Part shown: positions 2,706-41,885 of the stretch, piece after piece
Position numbering within the stretch: the stretch's first letter is position 1
Layout of the letters: every line of letters starts with the position of its first letter
From: Microbacterium enclense
GTDB lineage: Bacteria; Actinomycetota; Actinomycetes; Actinomycetales; Microbacteriaceae
Direction: 5' to 3'
Assembly (NCBI RefSeq): GCF_004022425.1
Contig: NZ_RBZY01000019.1
Location: forward strand, 12,728-58,074
Length of the DNA: 45,347 bases
Translations under genes and position numbers: made by a program
The notes under the pieces: generated by a model
What the model was told of the DNA's origin: nothing
What the model saw: the letters and a program-made list of their open reading frames with translations, nothing else
The model's database searches: none

Positions 2706-3158
2706 CTACTTCGCGGCGACCACCTGGAGGGTGATCACGGCGGTGACGTCGTCACGCAGGCGAACGGTCGCCTCGTGCTCGCCCACCGACTTGATCGCCG
2801 AGGTGATCTGGATCTTGCGCTTGTCGAGCTCACCGAGACCGGCGGCCTTGACCGCGTCGGCCACGTCGCCCGTCTTGACCGAACCGAACAGGCGACCCTC
2901 GGCACCGGCCTTGACGGCCAGCTTGACGGTGTTCGACTCGAGCGAGTTCTTCAGGGCCACGGCCTCTTCGTGGTCGTGGATCGCGCGGGACTCGCGAGCG
3001 GCGCGGATCGACGCGACCTGCTTCTCGCCACCGCGGCTCCAGGCCACGGCGAAGCCCTGCGGGATGAGGTAGTTGCGGGCGTACCCGCTCTTGACCTCGA
3101 CAACGTCACCGGCGCTACCGAGCCCGGTGACCTCATTCGTGAGAATCAGCTTTGCCAT
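2706..3158 (-). CDS. rplI: 50S ribosomal protein L9
   Basis: 150 residues, the family length. The N-terminal rRNA-binding domain starts [14 protein letters not shown] and has the conserved [14 protein letters not shown] long connecting helix follows (about residues 40-75), then the C-terminal domain ([16 protein letters not shown]). L9 binds 23S rRNA domain V near the L1 stalk. It lies 10 bases after rpsR in the ribosomal protein/ssb operon. Confidence 0.97.
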
Positions 3159-3168
3159 CGGGTGCTCC

Positions 3169-3423
3169 TTAGCGGCCGGCGCCGGCGTAGGGCAGGAGAG
3201 CCATCTCGCGCGCGTTCTTGATGGCGCGGGCGATCAGGCGCTGCTCCTGCACGGAGACACCGGTGATACGACGGGCGCGGATCTTCCCGCGCTCCGAGAT
3301 GAACTTGCGGAGGGTGGCGACGTCCTTGTAGTCGATGACGCCGACGCGGATCGCCTTCGCGGGGGCTGCGTTCTTCGCGCCCTTCCGCGGCTTGCGGCGG
3401 TCGCCAGTGGCCTTTCCAGCCAT
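3169..3423 (-). CDS. rpsR: 30S ribosomal protein S18
   Basis: 84 residues. The core [19 protein letters not shown] and [26 protein letters not shown] are diagnostic. S18 pairs with S6 on the 30S platform. Start set at ATG 3423 ([10 protein letters not shown]); the upstream frame is unlike the family. There are no zinc-ribbon cysteines, so this is the Zn-independent form that still sits in the main operon. The 101-base gap to ssb carries a GGATGCC/GGCATCC inverted pair. Confidence 0.97.
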
Positions 3424-8906: not shown

Positions 8907-8965
8907 TCGAGTGTCCAAGACACGCCGACCGGGCCTGTCGGCATCCGCGTGTCGTGGACACTCGA
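8907..8965. repeat. palindromic element, copy 1
   Basis: Two arms of about 22 bases pair with two mismatches around a 14-base loop (TCGAGTGTCC at the left end, GGACACTCGA at the right). Each arm holds a smaller GTGTC-N3-GACAC palindrome. It sits between the convergent lysR and sfnG stops. Same family as the elements at 11315, 11438, 11561 and 29135. Confidence 0.85.
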
Positions 8966-8973
8966 CGTGGGCG

Positions 8974-10107
8974 TCAGCCCCGTGCGACTCCGATCGGGTC
9001 GCCCGTGCGGGCGAGGTCCGCCTCGATCTCGCGCACGATCGGGATGACGGTCTCTCCGAACCGCTCGAGCTCCTCCTGGAAGTGCAGGAATCCGAGGAGG
9101 AACAGGTCGACGCCGCGCTTCTTGTACTCGATGATCCGCTCGGCGATCTGCTGCGCGTCGCCGAAGAGCTGGGTGCGGAAGCCGTCGTTGTACTGCACGA
9201 GGTCCGCGACCGTGGAGTCGGCCCACATCCCCTTCTTGTCGGTGGTGGCGTTGCCCGCCTCCTGCACGCTCCGGCGGAATCCCTCGACGGCGCCGCCGTC
9301 GGCGTGCGCGATGATCTCGCGCAGTTGCTCTTCGGCTTCCGCGCGGCTGTCGCGCTGGATGACGAAGCCGTTCAGCCCGAATCGCGTGCGGCGTCCGTGC
9401 TCCGCCGCGATACGCGTGACGTCGTCGTACTGCTCGGTGAAGCCGTCGAAGTCCTTGCCGTTGGAGAAGTACCAGTCGGCGTAGGCGCCGCCGTTGAAGC
9501 GGGCCGCTGTCGAGTTGCCGCCCTGGAAGATGTCGGGGTGCGCACGCCCCGGCACCGCGTACGGGAAGGGTCGGAGCGTGAAGTCGGTGATGTCGTAGTA
9601 CTTGCCGTGGAACGAGAACTTCTCCTGCGTCCACAGCCCGCGCAAGATCTGGATGAATTCCGCCGCCCGCTCATACCGCTCGTCATGCTCGAGCCATTCC
9701 AGACCGAGGTCGGTGTACTCGTCTTTGAACCAGCCGCTCACGACGTTGACCGCGGCGCGGCCGTGCGAGAACTGGTCGGCGGTGTTGATGAACTTCGCCA
9801 GGACGGCCGGATGCCAGATCCCGGGGTGGATGGCCGAGATCACCTTCAGCTTCTCGGTGGCCAGCAGCAACGCGAGGCTGATCGAGGTGGACTCGTGCTG
9901 CTGCGCGGCCCCGTAACTCGAGGCGTACCGCACCTGGCTGAGGGCGTACTCGAATCCGACACGCTCGGCCGTCCGGGCGAGCTCGACGTTGTAGTCGAGG
10001 CTCCAGCCGGTGCGTTGCTCGATCAAGCTGATCACGAGCCCGCCGCTGACGTTGGGGACCCAGTAGGCGAACTTCAGGGGCTCGTGCGTGGGGGCGGTGT
10101 CGGTCAT
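8974..10107 (-). CDS. sfnG: FMNH2-dependent dimethyl sulfone monooxygenase
   Basis: 377-residue luciferase-like (LLM) TIM barrel. FAYWVPNVSGGLVISLIEQRT at the start, GIWHPAVLAKF, ADQFSHGRAAVNVVSGWFKDEY and HPDIFQGGNS are the SfnG signature segments. SfnG uses reduced FMN and oxygen to split dimethyl sulfone to methanesulfinate and formaldehyde, feeding sulfur assimilation. Start at ATG 10107 (MTDTAPTHEP); the longer frame lacks similarity. Divergent from a second LLM enzyme with which it may share control. No flavin reductase gene is adjacent, so reduced FMN must come from elsewhere. Confidence 0.85.
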   Translation of the reverse strand: MTDTAPTHEPLKFAYWVPNVSGGLVISLIEQRTGWSLDYNVELARTAERVGFEYALSQVRYASSYGAAQQHESTSISLALLLATEKLKVISAIHPGIWHPAVLAKFINTADQFSHGRAAVNVVSGWFKDEYTDLGLEWLEHDERYERAAEFIQILRGLWTQEKFSFHGKYYDITDFTLRPFPYAVPGRAHPDIFQGGNSTAARFNGGAYADWYFSNGKDFDGFTEQYDDVTRIAAEHGRRTRFGLNGFVIQRDSRAEAEEQLREIIAHADGGAVEGFRRSVQEAGNATTDKKGMWADSTVADLVQYNDGFRTQLFGDAQQIAERIIEYKKRGVDLFLLGFLHFQEELERFGETVIPIVREIEADLARTGDPIGVARG

Positions 10108-11294: not shown

Positions 11295-11314
11295 GGCGGG
11301 TGCTCCCCGGTTTC

Positions 11315-11367
11315 AGTGTCCAAGACACGCGGACCGCGCGCGGCGGCATCCGCGTGTCTTGGGCACT
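11315..11367. repeat. palindromic element, copy 2
   Basis: 19-base arms (11315-11333 and 11349-11367) pair with a single G-T wobble around a 15-base GC-rich loop. Located 20 bases after the monooxygenase stop. First of three tandem copies spaced about 122 bases apart. Confidence 0.9.
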
Positions 11368-11437
11368 CAACGAGATTGCAACGCCCCGCGGCGGACCCGG
11401 GTTCGGCAGCCGTCAACGCCGCTCCTGCAGAGGTTCG

Positions 11438-11488
11438 GTGTCCAAGACACGCGGACCAACCCCCGCGGCACCCGCGTGTCTTGGACAC
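11438..11488. repeat. palindromic element, copy 3
   Basis: Perfect 17-base arms (11438-11454 and 11472-11488). The loop differs from the other copies (ACCAACCCCC...). Separated from its neighbours by two nearly identical spacers of about 70 bases. Confidence 0.9.
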
Positions 11489-11560
11489 TCAACGAGATGG
11501 CAACGCCCCGCGACGGACCCGGGTTCGGCGGCCCGTCAACGCCGCTCCTGCATAGGCTCG

Positions 11561-11611
11561 GTGTCCAAGACACACGGACCGCGCGCGGCGGCATCCGCGT
11601 GTCTCGGACAC
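11561..11611. repeat. palindromic element, copy 4
   Basis: 18-base arms (11561-11578 and 11594-11611) with two mismatches. It ends 46 bases before the stop of the convergent ATP-grasp gene. The 11295-11657 gap holds only this triple array. Confidence 0.9.
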
Positions 11612-11657
11612 TCAACGGGGCAGGAAGCTGCCGGAGGCCCGCCGCGGCACGGCGCGG

Positions 11658-12599
11658 TCAGCGCGTGACGAGCGGGGCGTCCTGCTCGAGCAGCGCCCCG
11701 AGCCAGCGCGCGATCTGGCGCGGACCGGAACGGGGAGCGGATGCCTCGACGTCGGGGTTGTAGTTCGTGTTGGTGTTGACGTCGTAGGTGACGACGCGGC
11801 CGTCGCGGGTCTCGATGAACTCGATCCCGGCGACGCCGATGCCCTCGGCCGCGAGGAACGCGAGGTAGCGGTCGATGAGCGCGGGCTCGACGTCGTCGCG
11901 GAGGCGGAACAGCGGCTCGGGCTCCACGCCGTCGGCACCGGGGATCGCGCACGCCTCGGCCGGGCACAGCTCGAAGCTGCCCGCGCTCGTGTCGACACGC
12001 ACGGCGTAGACGAACTCGCCCCCCACGAACTCGGCGCGCGTGATGAACGGCGCGCGTGCGACGAGCAGCTCCTGCAGCAGCGTGATCCCGTCGGGCGACG
12101 GCTCGAAGTCAGGGCTGTCGACCCACGCCGCGAACTCGGCGTGCGTCTCCCACCGGCGCACGCCCAGGCCCTTGCCGCCCTGGTTGTGCTTGCTGATGAA
12201 CGGGGCCTCGAACTCGCGGGCCTTCGTGGCCAGCCCGGCCCGCCCGAACACGGCCGACGTGCGCGGCACCTCGATACCCGCGTGACGCAGAGCCGCGTGC
12301 TGGGCGACTTTGCTGACCTCGAGCTCGAGCACATCGGCGCCGTTCACGACGGTGCGACCCCACGATGCGAGCCAACGCAGCACAGCGCGACCGTACTCCT
12401 TGCTATCGCCGTGATCCCGCGTGTGCGCGGACGCGCTGAGCCGCGACCAGAACACACCCTCGGGCGGCTCGACGGAGAGATCGATGGACCCGTCGGTCAG
12501 CAGCCATTCCTCCAGCGGAATACCTTCCGCCTGGAATGCCGCCTCGAACGGCGGGAGCCATTGGGGGTTCTCATGGATCACGTACACACTGCCCGACAT
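11658..12599 (-). CDS. ATP-grasp ligase-like protein (RimK-like)
   Basis: 313 residues. An N-terminal pre-ATP-grasp domain carries the YVIHENPQWLPPF opening. The ATP-grasp fold follows: PFISKHNQGGKGLGVRRW (nucleotide-binding loop), EFVYAVRVDTSAGSFELCP, and metal ligands in GIEFIETRDGRVVTYDVNTNTNYNP. This places it with RimK-like carboxylate-amine ligases, which join an amino group to an acyl phosphate; the substrate is unknown. Start ATG 12599. Convergent with the monooxygenase across the palindrome array, divergent from the methyltransferase. Confidence 0.8.
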   Translation of the reverse strand: MSGSVYVIHENPQWLPPFEAAFQAEGIPLEEWLLTDGSIDLSVEPPEGVFWSRLSASAHTRDHGDSKEYGRAVLRWLASWGRTVVNGADVLELEVSKVAQHAALRHAGIEVPRTSAVFGRAGLATKAREFEAPFISKHNQGGKGLGVRRWETHAEFAAWVDSPDFEPSPDGITLLQELLVARAPFITRAEFVGGEFVYAVRVDTSAGSFELCPAEACAIPGADGVEPEPLFRLRDDVEPALIDRYLAFLAAEGIGVAGIEFIETRDGRVVTYDVNTNTNYNPDVEASAPRSGPRQIARWLGALLEQDAPLVTR

Positions 12600-29064: not shown

Positions 29065-29134
29065 GCCTTCGAGCCTAACCGGGGGCACCGACGCGCCGGG
29101 GTCTCGGCGGCGTCCGTGCCCGTTCCCCCGGTTC

Positions 29135-29187
29135 AGTGTCCTGGACACGCGGACCGCGCGGCGCGGCATCCGCGTGTCTTGGACACT
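29135..29187. repeat. palindromic element, copy 5
   Basis: 19-base arms (29135-29153, 29169-29187) with two mismatches around a CCGCGCGGCGCGGCA loop, flanked by GGTTC before and CAACG after as in most copies. Located 30 bases beyond the methyltransferase stop, between two minus-strand genes. Confidence 0.9.
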
Positions 29188-29216
29188 CAACGGGTCGATC
29201 CGACCGCACCCGCCCC

Positions 29217-30743
29217 TCACGCGTCGGCGAACGCGAGGAACCCCGTCACGATGGGTTCGCGCACCCGCGGCAGGACATCGGCGCGGAGCTCGGTGGCATC
29301 CACCTCCAACAGCTGCGCGATCGCGTCGAGCAGCGCACCGACCGGAAGGTCGCCGTCGGATGCACCCACGAGCGCGGCGACCGCCGAGTCGACCTCGATC
29401 GTGCGGGCGAAGCCGCCACCCTGCCGGAGTTCGATCACGGAGGGCGACTCTTCGCCGGGCCGGTGGTGCCGGGCCTCGGTCACGTCCGGCGCGACCCTCA
29501 GGACGGCGGATGCCAGCCCCTCGTCGTCCAGCAGGGCGGCGCGGTCGTGGTTCTCGAGGCACGCGGCGAGGTGCGGCCCGAACGCGGATTCGCCGCCGCC
29601 GGCGACCCGCTCGTAGCGCGCGAGCGTGGGAGCACCGGCGAGCGGGCGGCGGAGCACGACGTATCCGAACCCGATGCCGGTGACCCCGCGCTGCGCGAAG
29701 TCGTCGAGCCACGCGTCGATGAGACGCGCATACGCGGGCGTGCCCGGAACGGTTCCGCCGTCGCGCACCCACAGCTCGGCGTACGCGAGCGGATCGAGCA
29801 CCTCCCGCTCGATCACCCACGCGTCCAGCGACGGATCGACCCAGCCGCGGAGCCGGTCGAGCCCCGATTCGCCGTCGCGGTACTCCCAGTTGCCGAGCGA
29901 CTGCGCGACCCCGCCGGGAGCGAGGTGCGCGGCGACGCCCGAGACGACCGCGGAGACCAGCGCGTCGCCCTCCAGCCCGCCGTCGCGGTACTCGTAGGCC
30001 GGGACGCCCGCGACGCGCGGCGTGATGACGAACGGGGGATTGGATGCCACCCGCTCGAACGTCTCGCCGGCCACGGGCTCGAACAGCGAACCGAGTCGCG
30101 TCTCGATGCCGTCGACGTCGTTGAGCAGCGCGTTCAGCCGCGTGAAGCGCAGCGCCCGTTCGGAGATGTCCGTCGCGATCACGCGCGGCACGAGCCGCCG
30201 CAACCGGAGGGCCTGGATGCCACACCCCGTGCCGAGATCGAGAGCCGTCCCGCCGCGCCACGTGAGCTGGAGCGTGGCGAGCGTCTGCGAGGCCCCGCCG
30301 ACGCCGAGGACGTGGTCCTCGGGGAGCGGCCCGCCCAGCGCGGCCTCGTCGAGGTCGCTCGCGATCCACCACTCCACCTCTCCGTCGCCGTCGTCGAAGG
30401 GCTGCGGGCGCACGAGCACGGCGGGCACGACGTGGTCACCCTTGAGCGCGACCAGGCCGAGCATTGCCGCCCCCTCCACGCCGAGGGAGGGGAGAGCCGC
30501 GGCCGCAGCCTCTCGCGCGACCGGAACGCCGAGACCCCAGAGGCGCCCGAGCACCGCGAGCGCGTCGCTCCGGCGGCCGAGCGCACGCTCCGCCGGCCCG
30601 CGCAGGCCCCGAGCCACGGCATCGTCCGCCTGGACGCCCCACGCGTCGCGGAGCGCCGCGCCGGAATACCTCGCGGCCCGGAGATCATGGGCGAGAGCGC
30701 GGCACAGTGTCGGGTCGGGTTCGGGGAGCACCGGTCCATTCAA
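29217..30743 (-). CDS. SAM-dependent methyltransferase (rRNA/PrmC-like fold)
   Basis: 508 residues. An N-terminal helical domain (about 1-140) precedes a methyltransferase domain: TALDLGTGCGIQALRLRRL (motif I), VIATDISERALRFTRLN (motif II), and RVASNPPFVITPR (motif IV NPPF). NPPF enzymes methylate amino groups of nucleotide bases or Gln residues, so rRNA or protein is the likely target. A C-terminal extension (about 350-508) is not recognised. The type is common in Microbacteriaceae at this place, between pcnA and the DUF6049 gene. Confidence 0.82.
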   Translation of the reverse strand: MNGPVLPEPDPTLCRALAHDLRAARYSGAALRDAWGVQADDAVARGLRGPAERALGRRSDALAVLGRLWGLGVPVAREAAAAALPSLGVEGAAMLGLVALKGDHVVPAVLVRPQPFDDGDGEVEWWIASDLDEAALGGPLPEDHVLGVGGASQTLATLQLTWRGGTALDLGTGCGIQALRLRRLVPRVIATDISERALRFTRLNALLNDVDGIETRLGSLFEPVAGETFERVASNPPFVITPRVAGVPAYEYRDGGLEGDALVSAVVSGVAAHLAPGGVAQSLGNWEYRDGESGLDRLRGWVDPSLDAWVIEREVLDPLAYAELWVRDGGTVPGTPAYARLIDAWLDDFAQRGVTGIGFGYVVLRRPLAGAPTLARYERVAGGGESAFGPHLAACLENHDRAALLDDEGLASAVLRVAPDVTEARHHRPGEESPSVIELRQGGGFARTIEVDSAVAALVGASDGDLPVGALLDAIAQLLEVDATELRADVLPRVREPIVTGFLAFADA

Positions 30744-35015: not shown

Positions 35016-35984
35016 TCAGCCCGTGTAGCCGTCTTCGCCCAGGACGGCGAGAATGCGGTTGAGGTCCTGGATAGTTGCGAAATCTATGCTGATCTGGCCT
35101 TTTCGTGCCGTGAGTGAGACCTTGACCTTCGTGTCGAACCGGTCGCCCAAACGTTCCGCGATGTCGTCGAGACCCGATCGGCGGGATCCGGCCTTCGGCC
35201 TCTGGCGGACGGGTGCCACGCCGGGCATCTTCGCGGCCGCTTCGGCCGCACGCACTGAAAGGTCTTCGTTGACGATCTTGTCGGCCAGCTTCTGCATCTC
35301 GCGCGGATCGTCGAGCGAAAGGATCGCGCGGGCATGTCCGGCGCTGAGAACGCCGGCCGCCACACGCTGCTGTACGGGTACCGGGAGCTTGAGGAGGCGG
35401 ATCGTGTTGCTGATCTGGGGGCGCGAGCGGCCGATGCGGGTGGCGAGCTCTTCTTGGGTGATGCCGAAGTCCTCGAGGAGCTGCTGGTAGGCGGATGCTT
35501 CTTCGAGCGGGTTGAGCTGCGAACGATGCAGATTCTCCAGGAGGGCATCACGCAGGAGATACTCGTCCTCGGTCTCCCGCACGACCGCCGGGATGGACGT
35601 CAGGCCCGCCTCGCGCGATGCGCGTGTGCGGCGCTCACCCATGATCAGCTCGAACGTGCCGTCGCCCTTGTCGCGCACGACGACGGGCTGCAGAACACCG
35701 AACTCGCGCACCGAGTGCACGAGTTCCGCGAGGTCATCGGAATCGAAGTGCGTGCGCGGCTGCCGGGGATTGGGGACGATCGACTTCGGGTCGATGTGCA
35801 CGAGGCGTGCACCCGGCACGCTGACGAGGTCAGCCGTCGCCTCATCCGACGGCGTGCTCGCCTTCGTGGTTTCGTCGGACGACGACGCACCCGGGAAGAA
35901 GACGTCGACAGGACGCGACTCCGACGACTCGGCGGTGGGGATGAGGGCACCGATGCCGCGGCCCAGTCCGGTTCTCTTGGCCAT
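35016..35984 (-). CDS. parB: chromosome partitioning protein ParB
   Basis: 322 residues. N-terminal AKRTGLGRGIGALIP, then the CTPase/ParB-N box with GERRTRASREAG, HTH domain (FGITQEELATRIGRSRPQIS), and a C-terminal dimer domain. ParB binds parS, loads as a CTP-dependent clamp and spreads, guiding origin segregation with ParA. ATG 35984 shares one base with the parA stop. Seven parS sites lie just upstream of parA. Confidence 0.96.
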   Translation of the reverse strand: MAKRTGLGRGIGALIPTAESSESRPVDVFFPGASSSDETTKASTPSDEATADLVSVPGARLVHIDPKSIVPNPRQPRTHFDSDDLAELVHSVREFGVLQPVVVRDKGDGTFELIMGERRTRASREAGLTSIPAVVRETEDEYLLRDALLENLHRSQLNPLEEASAYQQLLEDFGITQEELATRIGRSRPQISNTIRLLKLPVPVQQRVAAGVLSAGHARAILSLDDPREMQKLADKIVNEDLSVRAAEAAAKMPGVAPVRQRPKAGSRRSGLDDIAERLGDRFDTKVKVSLTARKGQISIDFATIQDLNRILAVLGEDGYTG

Positions 35985-36904
35985 CAGTCTTCCTTCGTGG
36001 TGGTGTCGCGGGCAACGATCTCGACCGCCGCTTCGCGGTAGGCGATCGCGCCCGCTGAGTGGCCATCGTACGCGATGACCGTCTGACCGAAGCTCGGCGC
36101 CTCTGACACACGTACCGAGCGGGGGATCACGGTCTCGAGGACCTCGTTCGAGAAGTGCGTGCGCACCTCATCGGCCACCTGTTGCGCGAGACGGGTTCGC
36201 CCGTCGTACATCGTCAGCAGGATGGTCGACACGTGGAGCGCGGGATTGAGGTGCTTCTGGATCATCTGCACGCTGCCGAGGAGTTGGCTCAGCCCCTCCA
36301 GGGCGTAGTACTCGCACTGGATGGGGATCAGCACCTCGTCGGCGGCGGTGAAGGCGTTGATCGTCAACAAGCCCAGCGACGGGGGACAGTCGATGACCAC
36401 GAAGTCGAGATGGGTGTCAGGTGAGGCGAGGTAGTCGCGGAGCGCACCGCGGAGCCTGTGCTCGCGAGCCACCTGTGAGACGAGCTCGATCTCCGCGCCC
36501 GCGAGATGAATCGTGCTGGGCGCACACAGGAGGTTCGGCGACTCGGGGCTCGTCTGAATGATGTCGGAAAGCGGGAACTCGTCGATGAGGACGTCGTAGA
36601 TACTCGCGGTGTCCGCATTGTGGGGAACCCCGAGCGCGGTCGATGCGTTGCCCTGAGGGTCGAGGTCGATCACCAGTACTTTGGCACCGAGGGATGCCAG
36701 CGCCGCCGAGATGTTGACGGCGGTGGTGGTCTTGCCGACGCCGCCCTTCTGGTTGGAGACCGTGAATACGCGGGTGCGTCCCGACAGCTTCACCTCAACG
36801 GCCTCCAACGCTCGTCGTCGCGCCGACAAATCTGCGAGCTCGCGCGCAATGGGGGAGTCTTCGAAGGAGGTGGCGGAACGAGACGGCTCACCGGACTGTT
36901 TCAC
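35984..36904 (-). CDS. parA: chromosome partitioning ATPase ParA
   Basis: 306 residues. Deviant Walker A is SNQKGGVGKTTTAVNIS, Walker A' VIDLDPQGNAS, Walker B VVIDCPPSLG. ATP-dependent DNA-bound partner that moves ParB-parS complexes. An N-terminal helix region of about 45 residues precedes the core. The GTG start (36904) falls inside parS site 1, with AAGGAG ten bases upstream on the far side of the site. ParB binding there could block parA expression. Confidence 0.95.
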   Translation of the reverse strand: MKQSGEPSRSATSFEDSPIARELADLSARRRALEAVEVKLSGRTRVFTVSNQKGGVGKTTTAVNISAALASLGAKVLVIDLDPQGNASTALGVPHNADTASIYDVLIDEFPLSDIIQTSPESPNLLCAPSTIHLAGAEIELVSQVAREHRLRGALRDYLASPDTHLDFVVIDCPPSLGLLTINAFTAADEVLIPIQCEYYALEGLSQLLGSVQMIQKHLNPALHVSTILLTMYDGRTRLAQQVADEVRTHFSNEVLETVIPRSVRVSEAPSFGQTVIAYDGHSAGAIAYREAAVEIVARDTTTKED

Positions 36905-36912
36905 GTGAAACG
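36897..36912. promoter_or_regulatory. parS site 1
   Basis: TGTTTCACGTGAAACG, the ParB-binding palindrome. It covers the parA start codon. Confidence 0.95.
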
Positions 36913-37260
36913 CGCTCCTTCGTACCCGGGGACAACGACCTCAGTCTACGCGGGCGGAGGATCGCGCGAAGGCCAGGGGCTGGCCGCGACGGGATCCCGA
37001 CCGGATCTCTCCGCGCTGCTGCACCTGGGCGCGATCGCGTCGAGTAGATGGGTAGGTAGCGCATACTCCTACTGCTGACCGACTGGAAACGGCGTGGGAC
37101 GCGATCCCGACGACGGTGTGGGAGCTCGTGCGGACCACGCCGAATGCTTACGCAAGCTGACCTATTTGCCGCGCGGGCCGCCAGCCGCTCTCCTCGGCTG
37201 GGTTGCTGACGTGGGGCGCGGGCGCGGCGCGGTTGTTCGCACCGAGCATCGTCACGCGTG

Positions 37261-37276
37261 TGTTTCACGTGAAACG
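37261..37276. promoter_or_regulatory. parS site 2
   Basis: TGTTTCACGTGAAACG; core palindrome GTTTCACGTGAAAC intact. Confidence 0.95.
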
Positions 37277-37626
37277 TGTTGCGCCTAGGCGCCCGACCTC
37301 GTCCCTAAAGTGCGTCGAAGTGGTCAGTGCGGCAGCTGGCAGTCGCGGCGGGCCGTATCCGCTCTGCGGGCCCGGCGAGAACTGACGGAAAGATGTGGCC
37401 TGCGCCGACTGTGCGCTTCCACGGGTGGATGGCTCCCTAGCCACCGGGGGAAGCGGTACGGCGTGCGTTGCCGCGCCTTGAAGACGGTGTCGGCGCGCGT
37501 GCGTGAGGTGCTGAAGAGTGCGCGTAACCGGCGCGCCTTGCGGCGGCGTCCCTCACGCGCCAGCTGAGGCATCGACTCGCAGCGCGGTTCCACGCGATGA
37601 TCCGGCGCGGGACGACGACGCCGTCG

Positions 37627-37642
37627 TGTTTCACGTGAAACA
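37627..37642. promoter_or_regulatory. parS site 3
   Basis: TGTTTCACGTGAAACA, the perfect 16-base consensus. Confidence 0.96.
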
Positions 37643-38083
37643 TGACGCCTCTACCCGCACAGCATGGTCTCCCGGGATCAACCACGTCGCACCCCGCGGA
37701 CGTACACCCCCAGGCCCATCCCGCCGGTCGCTCCTGGTAATCCAAGCCGGCGGAGCGTTCTGGCCCACTGTTCCGCCTCGCACTACGGTTGCACGCAGGC
37801 CAGGGCATCGGAGCCGACTTGTGAGGACACCGGCCATCCCCCGCCGATCGTGATGCCGCCTGTCGGATACGGCGCGGGTGCCTGAAGCGGCCCAGCGTCC
37901 TTTCATCCCTCGCTCAGTGACCCTGGCGGTTTCGCCCCCTCCGGACGCGCCGCCTGAAGTGACGGGCGGGGCTGATCGCTCCGCGCGATTAGGGGGAGGG
38001 GCGGCCCCGATGGGCACCGCATGTCGGCACCCCGCGAAGCGCCGGATGCCGGCACACCACCACGAGGGCGATACCTGAGGGAA

Positions 38084-38099
38084 TGTTTCACGTGAAACA
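38084..38099. promoter_or_regulatory. parS site 4
   Basis: TGTTTCACGTGAAACA, the perfect 16-base consensus. Confidence 0.96.
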
Positions 38100-38775
38100 G
38101 CGGTGGCGATGCTAGACACTCCCGCCAACACCACCGAGACGTCGTGAACCGCCCTGCGATGTACCAGCGACGTCCGCCAGGCATCCGCCATTGCATCGCA
38201 TGCGCGAGGTGCGGCTGCAGCGACCCGTGCTCTTCGGGCATGTCGAGCGTGCGTGGCCTCACGCACGTATCGCGTCGCACGATTTCCCTGCGCCACAACG
38301 GGGGAGTAGGCGTCAATCAACAGTCGACGTGTGGCGCGACAGAAGTCGCAACGGGCGGCAGGCAGCGTGACCAGTGGAGCCGGCGGGAGCGATCTTATGC
38401 TGCGTGGGCAGCAACGGATGATGCCTCACCCTCGTGCGGGAATCGCGTGGTGAACCGTCACCAAGAGGGAGCGCAGACGCACCGTGCTCGGTCTCACCCC
38501 GGGCCGGGTCGATGCGTCGTTCCCAACTCTCCCCATCTCTCGGGCCCTGACACGCGCCGCGAATCGACGACGCTCCCGTGAGTCGCTACCTCGACCGGTC
38601 GCTGGGTTCCGAGCAGGCGGTCCGCGCCGGGTTCAGCTCAGCCCACATTCGCAGCTGCCCCGCCTTGCAATGTGTCGTGAACCTCGGCCATGAGCTCGTT
38701 GAGCCATCTCTCGAGGCACGACAGGTCTCACGTCCGGTCGTCGTACCGACCCTCGCCGCAGAACGGCGGCGCCTT

Positions 38776-38791
38776 CGTTTCACGTGAAACG
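38776..38791. promoter_or_regulatory. parS site 5
   Basis: CGTTTCACGTGAAACG; palindromic at all 16 positions but with C/G outer bases. Confidence 0.94.
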
Positions 38792-38935
38792 ACTCGTCTA
38801 GGCACGGAGCTCGTGTGCGCGTCGGGCCACCACCTACTCCATGCGACCAGGCGTGAGACGTACCGAATCCCGCGTCCGCGGAGAGTGGTGCGAGTAGCCG
38901 GTATCACCCGCCCCGTTCCGGCCGAACAGTCGTCG

Positions 38936-38951
38936 GGTTTCACGTGAAACA
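38936..38951. promoter_or_regulatory. parS site 6
   Basis: GGTTTCACGTGAAACA; 160 bases from site 5, the closest pair. Confidence 0.94.
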
Positions 38952-39784
38952 TGGACCCACACTCAAGCCCTACAGTCACTCTGCGAGCGACTCCCGCCAC
39001 AGTGCACGTGGCCCGAGGGGCCGGGCCTCTCGGGTGGGTTCCGACCCGGCCCATGGTGGTCTACTCCTGCAGCCAATGCCATCGACGATAAGTCGACCAA
39101 GCCGCCGGCGCTCGAGAGCTCGGCGATTTCCTCTCGATGATCGACATCCTCCGACAACGATCGGGGAGACCGTTGGCCTGGCGGACCGCACGGACGCGAC
39201 TGACGGGCAGCCGTCTCCGACGCCAACACCTGAGCTCGGACGACACCGCAGGATGATGCCCCTCCCCAGCGCGCAGTCCAGCCCGTCCAACCACGACCGT
39301 AGGACGAGACCGGACCGTGCAGATACCTCTGAACGAGACACCGAGCCTGTTCCGTTCCGGGCGCGGCCACTGCGGACCCACAACGACCATCGATGTGCGC
39401 GCACGATCTTGCCACGCGTACGACCAACGTCACCCGCGTCTGCCTCCGTACCAATGCCGGACGAGGTCGGCTACAGCCGACCGTCGAGAAGCTCGCGGTG
39501 ACGCCGAGATGTGGCCATACCGAAGGACGGAGGCAACCTGCGCAGGACTGCCACGGTGTGCGGGGGTGGATGCATCGGATGGTGGTGCCTCGAGCGTCCG
39601 ATCGTGCGGGCACCCAACACTCCCGGGTACGGGATGAGCCACGAGAGCGCACTCACTCCCCAAAGGGCGCCAGTCCGCTGCAGGTACCGGGTACGCCGCG
39701 CGGAACGCCGCCTCACGATGCGCTGGAGACACGGCAATTGCCTCGGCCGAGACGCCACACCCGACCCGCTTCAGCGCATAGGGC

Positions 39785-39800
39785 CGTTTCACGTGAAACG
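39785..39800. promoter_or_regulatory. parS site 7
   Basis: CGTTTCACGTGAAACG; followed at 39815-39842 by a hairpin with perfect 9-bp arms. Confidence 0.94.
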
Positions 39801-39991
39801 GATACACGACGGCTGCTGGGCCGATCTGCCGCGCGGCCCAGCCGGCGCAGGGATCCGGCGCGCCCGTCATGCCCGCGCACACAGGCCTAGGACGGCAAAC
39901 TCCCACGCAGATTGCACCTCGTGTGCCGGTACCATCGACGCTGGAACCATCGGTGATCCTGTTCGATCACGCTGACATCGCGAGACGTTGA

Positions 39992-40732
39992 TGCACCCTC
40001 GCCACGAGCCGGCCGCTCCTCCCTTGCTACAGCAGGTCCTCGCACTACCTCCCGCACTGGACGACAGCCGAACGATCGGCTGCCCGGCTGCGGTTCGCGC
40101 TCCCCGGGCTCCACCTCCAGATCGACGAGAATCAACCCGACTGGCGTCCCGAGGACGCACCACTCAGAGTGTCCAATATGCAGACGGCCACGTACTCGGG
40201 TCCAGTCGGTTCCGATCGCGGCACGCATCGCCACCGCGCGGAAAACCTCGTCGTCCACACGCCTGTCCCCACTCGTCTCGGCTTCGCTCCACGTGCGGGC
40301 CGTGTCGAAGTAACCCTGCGCGCGAGCGCGGATCCCGACTGCATGACCGCGATCTGGCTCGTCGGCACCGAACACCAGGACCCCCGCGAGTGCGGCGAGA
40401 TCTGCGTCGCCGAGATCGATGCCGATACCGTCCGACTGCGGACGCGGACGCGATGCGGTATCAATGCCCACCTCGACGACCGGCTCACCACCGACATGAT
40501 CGCGACCACCGTCCCGTACGACACCCGTCGGCCCTTGACGTGGTCGGTCGAGTGGGGCGGGGGAGTGACCTTCATCGGTTGCGAGAATCGCGTGATCGCA
40601 ACATTCGATCAGGCCCCGACGTACGCCCTGATGCTTCTCATCGACGTCTTCGACCTCTCATCGGGCAGAGGGACGTACCCGACGTCGGCCGTGCTGCATC
40701 ATGCGAGAGCCTGGTCTCGCGACTCCCATTGA
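39992..40732 (+). pseudogene. GH16-like (concanavalin-type) gene, 5' end broken
   Basis: The similarity to actinobacterial GH16-like proteins extends upstream of the first usable start (GTG 40169): the same frame reads HYLPHWTTAERSAARLRF at about 40043-40096 and DWRPEDAPLRVSNMQTATYS, which belong to the domain. Above that the frame hits a stop at 39989-39991 with no start codon, so the N-terminal part is lost. The active-site strand GEICVAEID has Cys where GH16 enzymes have the middle catalytic Asp (E-[IL]-D-x-x-E). As an intact gene, 40169-40732 would code 187 residues. Convergent with rsmG, nine bases away. Confidence 0.55.
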
Positions 40733-40741
40733 ATGGGATCC

Positions 40742-41371
40742 CTATCGGGTGACGGTCGCCGTCAACACGCGCGTCGGCTCGTCCACCACGCCCTCGCCCA
40801 CGACGTGGATCTCGACGTCGACGACACCGAACCGGCGCATCTGCTTCTCAGCGGCATCCACCTCCGCCGCGACGTTCGCCCCCTTCAAATACGCGAGACG
40901 CCCTCCGACGCGCACCAGAGGTGCTGTCCAGGGGATGAGCGTGCGCAGCGCGCTCACCGCGCGGGCGGTGACGACGTCGAAGACGCGCCCCTTGGCCCAC
41001 TCCTCAGCCCGCAGGCGCTCCACCGTCACGTTGTCGAGCCCGAGGGATGCCACCTGCTCGTTCAGCCACACCGTGCGGCGTTCCATGGGCTCGATGAGCG
41101 TGAACTGCACATCCGGCCGCGCGATCGCGAGGACCAGACCGGGGAGGCCGGCGCCCGAACCGACATCAGCGACGCGTCCGTCGAAGAACGGGGCCGCGAC
41201 GGCACTGTTGAGGATATGCCGCGTCCACAGCCGCGGTACCTCGAGCGGGCCGATCAGTCCGCGCTCTTCCCCGTGCTCGGCGAGTGCGGCGGTGAAGCCG
41301 CGCGCCAGGTCGATGCGGTCGCCGAACACCGCGGCCGCGGCATCCGGTTCCGCTTCGAGTTCGTCCGTCAC
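40742..41371 (-). CDS. rsmG: 16S rRNA (guanine-527-N7)-methyltransferase
   Basis: 209 residues from GTG 41371 (MTDELEAEPD); the frame stays open to GTG 41416, which would overlap jag by 35 bases and adds residues unlike the family. GLIGPLEVPRLWTRHILNS, then SAM motif VADVGSGAGLPGLVLAIARP, and VTARAVSALRTLIPWTAPL. It methylates G527 of 16S rRNA. Last gene of the minus-strand rpmH-rsmG cluster. Confidence 0.92.
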   Translation of the reverse strand: MTDELEAEPDAAAAVFGDRIDLARGFTAALAEHGEERGLIGPLEVPRLWTRHILNSAVAAPFFDGRVADVGSGAGLPGLVLAIARPDVQFTLIEPMERRTVWLNEQVASLGLDNVTVERLRAEEWAKGRVFDVVTARAVSALRTLIPWTAPLVRVGGRLAYLKGANVAAEVDAAEKQMRRFGVVDVEIHVVGEGVVDEPTRVLTATVTR

Positions 41372-41381
41372 GTCGAACGGA

Positions 41382-41885
41382 TCAGCCGCGACGGAGCACG
41401 GTGTGACGGTCCGCACCCTCGCCGAACGACTCGGACGAGTAGCCGCGGTCGGCGGCGATGTCGTGCACGAGCTTGCGCTCGTAGCTCGACATGGCGGGCA
41501 ACGACGCCTGCGAGGCCCCCTCGTCGAGGCGCTGGATGGCGCGATCGACCAGGTTCTCGAGCTCGCGCTGACGCGCGTCGCGCGACCCTCCGATATCGAG
41601 GATCAGCCGCGAGAAGCGGCCGGTCGAGTTCTGCACGGCCAGACGGGTGAGCTCCTGCAGGGCCTGCACGGTGTCAGGGTGGGACAGCGTCGCCAGAGCC
41701 GCGACGTCGTCGGCCTCGACCGACACGTAGGCACGGCCCGCGCGCACATCGAGCGCGAGGTCGCCCTCGATGTCGGCGATGTCGAGGAGGCCCTCGAGGA
41801 AGTCGGCAGCGACGTCGCCCTCTTGCTCGAGCTGCTCCTCGGTGGCAGCAGGCTGGTCGGTCACGATCTGCTCGGACGTCGTCAT
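41382..41885 (-). CDS. jag: Jag/KhpB-like R3H-domain RNA-binding protein
   Basis: 167 residues. A KH-like domain (about 30-100; FLEGLLDIADIEGDLALDVR) is followed by an R3H domain (about 105-165; SSYERKLVHDIAADRGYSSE). The acidic N-terminus is short and the Jag-N domain of Firmicutes is missing, as usual in actinobacteria. RNA-binding partner encoded after yidC in most bacteria; 18 bases between the genes. Confidence 0.92.
   Translation of the reverse strand: MTTSEQIVTDQPAATEEQLEQEGDVAADFLEGLLDIADIEGDLALDVRAGRAYVSVEADDVAALATLSHPDTVQALQELTRLAVQNSTGRFSRLILDIGGSRDARQRELENLVDRAIQRLDEGASQASLPAMSSYERKLVHDIAADRGYSSESFGEGADRHTVLRRG

Follow-up and report, generated by a model that had tools for sequence, protein, structure and literature searches.

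Seven parS sites between parA and rsmG

The DNA analysed here, a stretch of 45,347 nucleotides from Microbacterium enclense to which we refer as the window, contains a ParABS chromosome segregation locus in which parB (35016..35984, minus strand) and parA (35984..36904, minus strand) are separated from rsmG (40742..41416, minus strand; GidB family) by a long interval carrying seven parS sites. Judging from the named relatives of rsmG, the window belongs to Microbacterium and is close to M. testaceum. The product of parA is a ParA-type ATPase (AAA_31, 203 bits; CbiA, 101 bits) whose gene directly adjoins parB, the two frames meeting at position 35984, and ParB possesses the N-terminal domain (ParB_N), the helix-turn-helix (HTH_ParB), the dimerisation domain (ParB_C) and the GERR box. 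In an alignment with Noc (7ng0), Q and R of Noc are replaced by R and G, respectively, in the window ParB; these are R173 and G201, the residues which, according to the available text of PMC7383237, switch specificity between parS and the Noc-binding site (NBS). By hand count along the same alignment Q162, G170, S172, N178 and R204 also fit, position 171 is R instead of K, and K is shared with Noc at position 184, which the same text describes as variable among ParB proteins (PMC7383237). Judged by its sequence, the window ParB is of the parS type and not of the Noc/NBS type.

A scan allowing up to three mismatches detected seven 16-mers with at most two mismatches from TGTTTCACGTGAAACA, namely parS 1 (36897..36912, TGTTTCACGTGAAACG), parS 2 (37261..37276), the two perfect 16-mers parS 3 (37627..37642) and parS 4 (38084..38099), parS 5 (38776..38791), parS 6 (38936..38951) and parS 7 (39785..39800). 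By chance 0.06 such 16-mers would be expected, and seven were reached in none of 100 shuffled sequences. Each of the seven includes the perfect 14-bp core GTTTCACGTGAAAC, and all cores fit within 2.9 kb (36897-39800). Consensus 16-bp palindromes of this type, expected of chromosomal ParABS systems, are thus present in the window. Throughout the assembly (3,407,767 bases in 149 contigs, rated 100% complete) these seven are the only cores with zero or one mismatch, and extending the search to two mismatches adds a single match, with two mismatches, on another contig. Tandem duplication was considered as the origin of the sites and rejected: their flanks are unrelated, and the window contains only four tiny tandem arrays (15-21 bp).

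A spacer without recognisable genes

The distance between parA and rsmG is 3,837 bp in full. This is longer than the interval 36897-39991, which the first-pass annotation had described as a gene-free region with seven near-perfect ParB sites, because a small conserved frame of 187 amino acids (40169..40732, plus strand), arranged tail-to-tail with rsmG, fills the rsmG side and the interval stops before it. An in-frame stop at 39989-39991 closes this frame upstream, and the gene-free part therefore extends from parA to about position 39990. At the other end parS 1 contains the predicted GTG start of parA (36904-36902) and is therefore the edge rather than a part of the spacer proper, which comprises 36913..39988 with parS 2 to 7.

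No sign of coding capacity was found in the spacer. The mean codon-periodicity contrast is 0.11 over the gap between parA and rsmG, compared to 0.37 in parAB, and only 6% of the gap windows exceed 0.25. None of five long spacer frames tested has a Pfam match at E values up to 1, a tRNA scan of the gap was negative, and there is no Rfam match near the gathering score, the single weak one inside being sR28 (37798-37849; 17.6 bits, gathering score 39). Between 36700 and 41000 we found two terminator-like sites (1.3 expected) and no sigma-70-like promoter, using a scan that fits actinobacterial promoters poorly. Among the 45 stop-to-stop frames of at least 50 amino acids in the window gap, six have a tblastn match at E values of 1e-3 or lower when compared to the gaps of 112 relatives, and five of these overlap the frame at 40169-40732 whereas the sixth lies at the parA-proximal end. 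At the DNA level, the segment 36905-40168 is matched in 33 of 366 genomes of the genus, the window's own included, and all non-self matches are restricted to its first 68 bases or to bases 3131-3261; the latter belong to the upstream part of the frame at 40169-40732 and are located elsewhere in some genomes. Since this search scored two candidates per genome, weak spacer matches may have been missed. It is conceivable that hidden genes or non-coding RNAs account for the stretch, and long chance frames do exist in it, but the lack of codon periodicity and of any Rfam match near threshold, and the confinement of matching frames and of DNA matches to the two ends, make this highly improbable. The earlier description of the sites thus holds, and even gains in that all seven cores are perfect, and that of the interval holds with respect to coding signal, curated RNA families and conserved frames; it does not hold for parS 1, which overlaps the predicted parA start.

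The spacer in Microbacterium and beyond

For comparison, we assembled 141 de-duplicated loci with rsmG, parA and parB (nearly all 17-20 kb), of which 113 belong to the Microbacterium clade: 38 named loci, 26 from a first genome batch, 48 from a later batch, and the window. Nine loci lacking rsmG, parA or parB and 12 duplicates (153 to 141) were left out, as were, for the figures on the genus, 28 loci outside Microbacterium. The later batch was chosen partly by closeness to the window ParB, which enriched the sample for kin of the window. The gap between rsmG and parA, in which a parS site at the parA start was counted as inside, ranges from 86 to 11,397 bp among the 113 loci, with a median of 2,725 bp. 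It measures at least 600 bp in 94 of them, a proportion that owing to the enriched sampling is not a fair rate for the genus; in an even draw of loci with rsmG and parA the corresponding figure is 20 of 25. On a tree of 94 rows based on ParA, ParB and RsmG, the long form is found in 57 of 65 rows of the Microbacterium clade, and the gap form changes 11 times over the whole tree, compared to 26.7 times in shuffles; the statistics on gap length and site spacing themselves ignore relatedness.

The gap is also where the sites are. Of 709 perfect cores in the 113 loci, 646 lie in the gap (1 to 13 per locus), a further 52 are located at the start of rsmG, and the remaining 11 are found within parAB or downstream of it. 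Moreover, in all 26 Microbacterium genomes compared in this respect (that of the window and 25 others) the genomic count equals the count in the locus, and there is therefore no perfect core elsewhere in these genomes.

Within the 94 long-gap loci, the longest non-coding-like run has a median of 3,125 bp in the gap and of 1,150 bp elsewhere (maximum 1,900 bp), and the run in the gap exceeds those elsewhere in the same locus in 79 cases, in agreement with the earlier remark that long gene-free stretches are rare in such genomes. Coding-like windows (contrast above 0.3) in 90 loci account for 1.3% of 2,398 windows within the parS span, for 11.6% of 440 in the rsmG-side remainder of the gap, and for 75.6% of 1,530 in parAB. 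The genes on the rsmG side differ between species and are unrelated to each other, including RibD_C, methyltransferase and Clp_N/AHSA1-like genes in Microbacterium and a transposase gene in Agromyces.

This transposase, a Mutator-type enzyme found in one Agromyces gap, is one of two observations that might suggest that the spacer derives from a decayed mobile element or plasmid. The other is a repeat resembling repetitive extragenic palindromes (REP; TATCGAGA / CTACTCGA), which occurs in 12 of 59 spacers (L045, L046, L050, L053, L055, L061, L092, L094, L123, L129, L141 and L143) and is about 15 to 30 times denser there than in flanking DNA. We consider such an origin very unlikely, as the 8-mer TATCGAGA is absent from the 20-kb part of the window tested, the window spacer frames tested lack Pfam matches, notable tandem arrays are missing, and the arrangement is seen repeatedly within the genus.

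Outside Microbacterium and Bifidobacterium, 17 of 21 gaps are shorter than 600 bp. The sample is small, but it supports the statement of the first-pass annotation that parA and rsmG are close neighbours in many actinobacteria. Two Agromyces loci have gaps of 2.7 and 4.4 kb, and one Agromyces genome also provides an exception to the confinement of the sites, with 13 cores genome-wide and 7 in the locus. In one of the Agromyces genomes (L074; G371, contig C9) six cores occur twice in mirrored order, at 465-2871 and 74736-77142, which represents either an assembly palindrome or a real inverted copy. Two Curtobacterium loci (L070, L072) contain no perfect core in the 20 kb around parAB, only sites with one or two mismatches.

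In [Zimmermannella] faecalis (L075) and Gulosibacter hominis (L076) rsmG and parA nearly touch, and a second gene-free block of about 3.9 kb is found between jag and rsmG, with 12 and 10 perfect cores, respectively (L075:6415-9902 and L076:6299-9330). The array of the former includes 11 additional near-cores and consists partly of a parS-bearing tandem repeat of 151 bp; the tandem-repeat tool was run on this locus and on the window only. The periodicity screen missed jag in L075 and rsmG in L076, and the frames of this stretch were checked by list and against Pfam; none of eight frames of at least 110 amino acids had a Pfam match above cut-off.

Retained sites in rapidly changing DNA

Conservation of the sites and of the DNA between them was analysed in pairs of related loci. 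Ranking by shared k-mers gave 60 closest pairs, of which 18 were left after dropping those with more than 99.8% identity, with less than 66% identity at fourfold degenerate sites, or with a gap below 60 bp. In the two reliably aligned pairs nine out of ten parS sites are intact at the aligned place, compared to 1.7 expected from composition-matched 14-mers and leaving out the parA-proximal site; the corresponding figures for ten disjoint pairs are 35 of 66 and 4.6 (nominal P about 1e-25), and all 18 pairs together share 65 of 190 sites. At more than 3 bp from a shared site, divergence is no lower than elsewhere in the spacer, so that selection seems to act on the site alone. Bases adjacent to the core show a preference for GAT-core-ATC, with no clear signal past about 6 bp (325 sites, 59 spacers). 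Selection on each parS site would be the best reading of these alignments. The sites are also spaced somewhat more evenly than random (mean coefficient of variation 0.58 compared to 0.76, kinship ignored); in the first set of 56 loci, 42 have values below the simulated median.

The DNA between the sites behaves quite differently. In two close pairs the identity in 500-bp windows amounts to 0.95-1.00 outside the gap, and within the gap it is 0.94-0.96 beside rsmG, drops to 0.72-0.89 further in, and rises again to 0.97 at parA. In the pair L162/L163 the parS span differs by 17.2%, fourfold sites of the neighbouring genes by 5.5% and other intergenic DNA of the locus by 1.6%. Fourfold sites in distant genes of the same pair (15,703 sites in six 20-kb regions) differ by 6.2%, so that the parS span has diverged 2.8 times as much, although for this control only blastn segments that were 300 bp or longer and 80% or more identical were used (93,681 of 120,000 bases), which lowers the control rate; per gene, distant fourfold divergence has a 95th percentile of 13.1% and a maximum of 18.1% (66 genes). 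Three further pairs show 22.1% in the parS span compared to 6.6% at neighbouring fourfold sites, 34.9% compared to 17.0%, and 47.3% compared to 14.2%. The rate of G-C exchanges, which ignores base composition, is 1.7 times that of distant fourfold sites (0.051 and 0.030; one pair). As most of the excess consists of exchanges between G/C and A/T, relaxed selection on composition stays a fair alternative, and the divergence of the spacer would be compatible with full neutrality as well as with an elevated mutation rate. Length and sequence can be uncoupled: the gaps of L157 and L162 measure 4,948 and 5,125 bp yet are only 59% identical.

These data lend weight to the main competing explanation, which assigns importance to the sites alone: the spacer would be neutral DNA that built up after parA had acquired a promoter of its own, being tolerated rather than kept. 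A divergence of the parS span of 2 to 3.3 times that of neighbouring fourfold sites in four pairs, one of which was checked against distant genes, speaks for this explanation, and the unrelated genes on the rsmG side in different species, the short gaps in 19 of 113 congeners and the range of lengths from 86 to 11,397 bp agree with it as well. It accounts less easily for long gaps being common and clustered on the tree, for the similar length of L157 and L162 in spite of their lost sequence similarity, for a site span nearly devoid of genes, and for the second block at another junction. We regard it as quite possible, though falling somewhat short of an even chance.

A probable compact centromere block and its possible role

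Taken together, we consider it likely, with a probability of roughly 0.8, that the interval is a chromosomal ParABS centromere block located in gene-free DNA beside parAB. The term dedicated centromere block, proposed when the window was first annotated, is supported by sequence in that all perfect cores occupy one locus in 26 of 26 Microbacterium genomes. The locus is of a known kind, a ParABS centromere, in an unusual form, with all perfect sites in one gene-free block whose filler turns over faster than synonymous sites.

Several observations weigh against this reading or restrict it. The gaps of the 19 short-gap congeners measure only 86-425 bp and hold one to three sites, and a long block is thus neither required for ParABS nor essential to the genus. 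In L123/L169 none of five sites was kept, the gap lengths of this close pair have shifted (3,990 and 6,059 bp), and alignments may anchor on parS, inflating shared counts in eight poorer pairs. Genes do occur among sites: in L065 two parS sites are separated by a diacylglycerol-kinase-like gene (11510-12520), in L068 a PNPOx-like gene lies between two parS sites and a GNAT-like gene overlaps the last one, and in four loci (L041, L055, L063, L071) more than 10% of the windows inside the site span are coding-like. The exclusion of genes is therefore strong, not absolute.

ParB loads at parS, slides along DNA as a CTP-dependent clamp, activates ParA and recruits SMC. In a centromere block such as that proposed for the window, ParB would load at each of the seven sites and slide along the gene-poor spacer as a CTP-driven clamp, ParA would move the ParB-bound region, and the loading of SMC condensin would likely start from a single compact location. 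With few promoters between the sites, clamps could spread without meeting RNA polymerase, and the spacer might be kept for offering a stretch with little transcription. We infer all of these steps, from ParB occupancy, clamp sliding and SMC loading to the retention of the spacer as a low-transcription track. That the spacer may be kept for ParB spreading or condensin loading had been suggested before; the retained sites, the similar length in some close species despite largely lost identity, and the second block between jag and rsmG make a function of the stretch plausible. The comparison with relatives proposed at the same time gave a divided answer: most sites are kept in close species and the long gap recurs, whereas the sequence is not conserved. 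An absent or random spacer in relatives had been named as evidence to the contrary, and this is half the case, with 19 of 113 gaps short and sequences that are effectively random between species.

SMC hinge and ScpA families of the condensin ring, the two that were searched for, are encoded in the same genome, as expected if SMC is loaded at these sites. Together with the location of all cores within 2.9 kb, this would also suit the explanation that the block serves mainly as one compact location for SMC loading, which would avoid collisions of condensins loaded at scattered sites, its freedom from genes being secondary; avoidance of collisions is discussed for clustered compared to scattered parS sites of Bacillus subtilis in the available part of PMC8357415. 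Compactness, however, needs no gene-free spacer, and species with short gaps are more compact still, which renders this explanation rather unlikely. More speculative, and in our view improbable though worth stating, is a bacterial centromere paradox, in which selection would pin the sites and space them roughly evenly, the length would be selected as a transcription-free track for ParB clamps, the filler would mutate faster than neutral sites of the chromosome because ParB coats it, and, as in Gulosibacter, the block could form anew at a different junction.

A centromere block of this form resembles known systems only in part, as far as the accessible text of the respective sources goes. Corynebacterium glutamicum has ten parS sites in one cluster in the origin region, nine of them intergenic; these sites load SMC, and a single one is enough for segregation (PMC7083940). 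This is likewise an actinobacterial ParABS system with clustered, mostly intergenic parS sites, but they extend over a 35-kb region and one is located within trpCF, so that they do not form one gene-free stretch. In most bacteria parS clusters span 5-40 kb near the origin (PMC8357415); clustering, probably near the origin, as a likely platform for ParB and SMC is shared, whereas in the Microbacterium window seven sites are packed into 2.9 kb, genes between them are lacking, and the spacer turns over while most sites stay. Streptomyces coelicolor has 21 parS sites and Mycobacterium smegmatis three, with the same core motif in M. smegmatis and nearly the same in S. coelicolor, both species having actinobacterial parAB; a gene-free parS block is not described for either in the available text (PMC7022226). 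Among the titles listed in a search of open-licence literature we found no description of a gene-free parS block of this form. Yeast and other fungal centromeres, partly covered in our sources, combine fast-evolving DNA with conserved function, an analogy only, as no parts are homologous. The Microbacterium block would be a bacterial case of conserved centromere function on non-conserved DNA. The 113 loci represent natural variants of one centromere, with gaps from 86 bp to 11 kb and 1 to 13 sites inside, and the role of the DNA between parS sites in ParB spreading and SMC loading is thus directly testable.

Flanking features and other repeats

Next to parS 1, the putative parA leader (36913..36948, minus strand) includes a TANNNT-type box (TAGACT, 36943-36948) and an AAGGAG resembling a ribosome-binding site (36915-36920), which suggests that parA has its own promoter here. 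ParB probably represses parAB, because parS 1 overlaps the predicted parA start just downstream of the promoter-like box. Close relatives keep the TAGACT box, the short leader and AAGGAG, and similarity stops past the box. A parS core is found at exactly the same offset to codon 1 of parA in 70 of 113 Microbacterium loci; the leader is not kept genus-wide, with AGGAG in 27 of these 70.

On the other side of the spacer, copies of the small frame at 40169-40732 are located beside rsmG in L031, L032, L034 and L035 (66-69% identical), and a 273-amino-acid relative in L142 shows a weak likeness to GH16 below the curated cut-off. In the window rsmG adjoins jag and yidC, an order that we take to be origin-proximal; the contig ends at the end of the window, before any oriC or dnaA. 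DnaA boxes are not enriched in the spacers, TTRTCCACR having two matches in 181 kb of spacer compared to 216 outside, origin regions included. A terminator after rsmG acting as an insulator was considered and dropped, since the effect is weak (mean hairpin energy -20.0 compared to -18.6, n=94, nominal P 0.03).

With respect to other motifs, GGGGGAG is in excess in the spacers (0.62 compared to 0.22 per kb), a feature that is not universal. ATGTACAT seemed enriched at first but proved equally dense outside the gaps. Elsewhere in the window, a palindrome-like repeat of about 60-100 bp (GTGTCCAAGACACGC...CGCGTGTCTTGGACAC) is present in five copies, at 8907-9006, 11312-11656 (three copies in a row, about 122 bp apart) and 29132-29231. 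At the very start of the window, positions 257-465 consist of a run of 9-bp repeats of the GGCACCCCC type, which would be collagen-like if translated.

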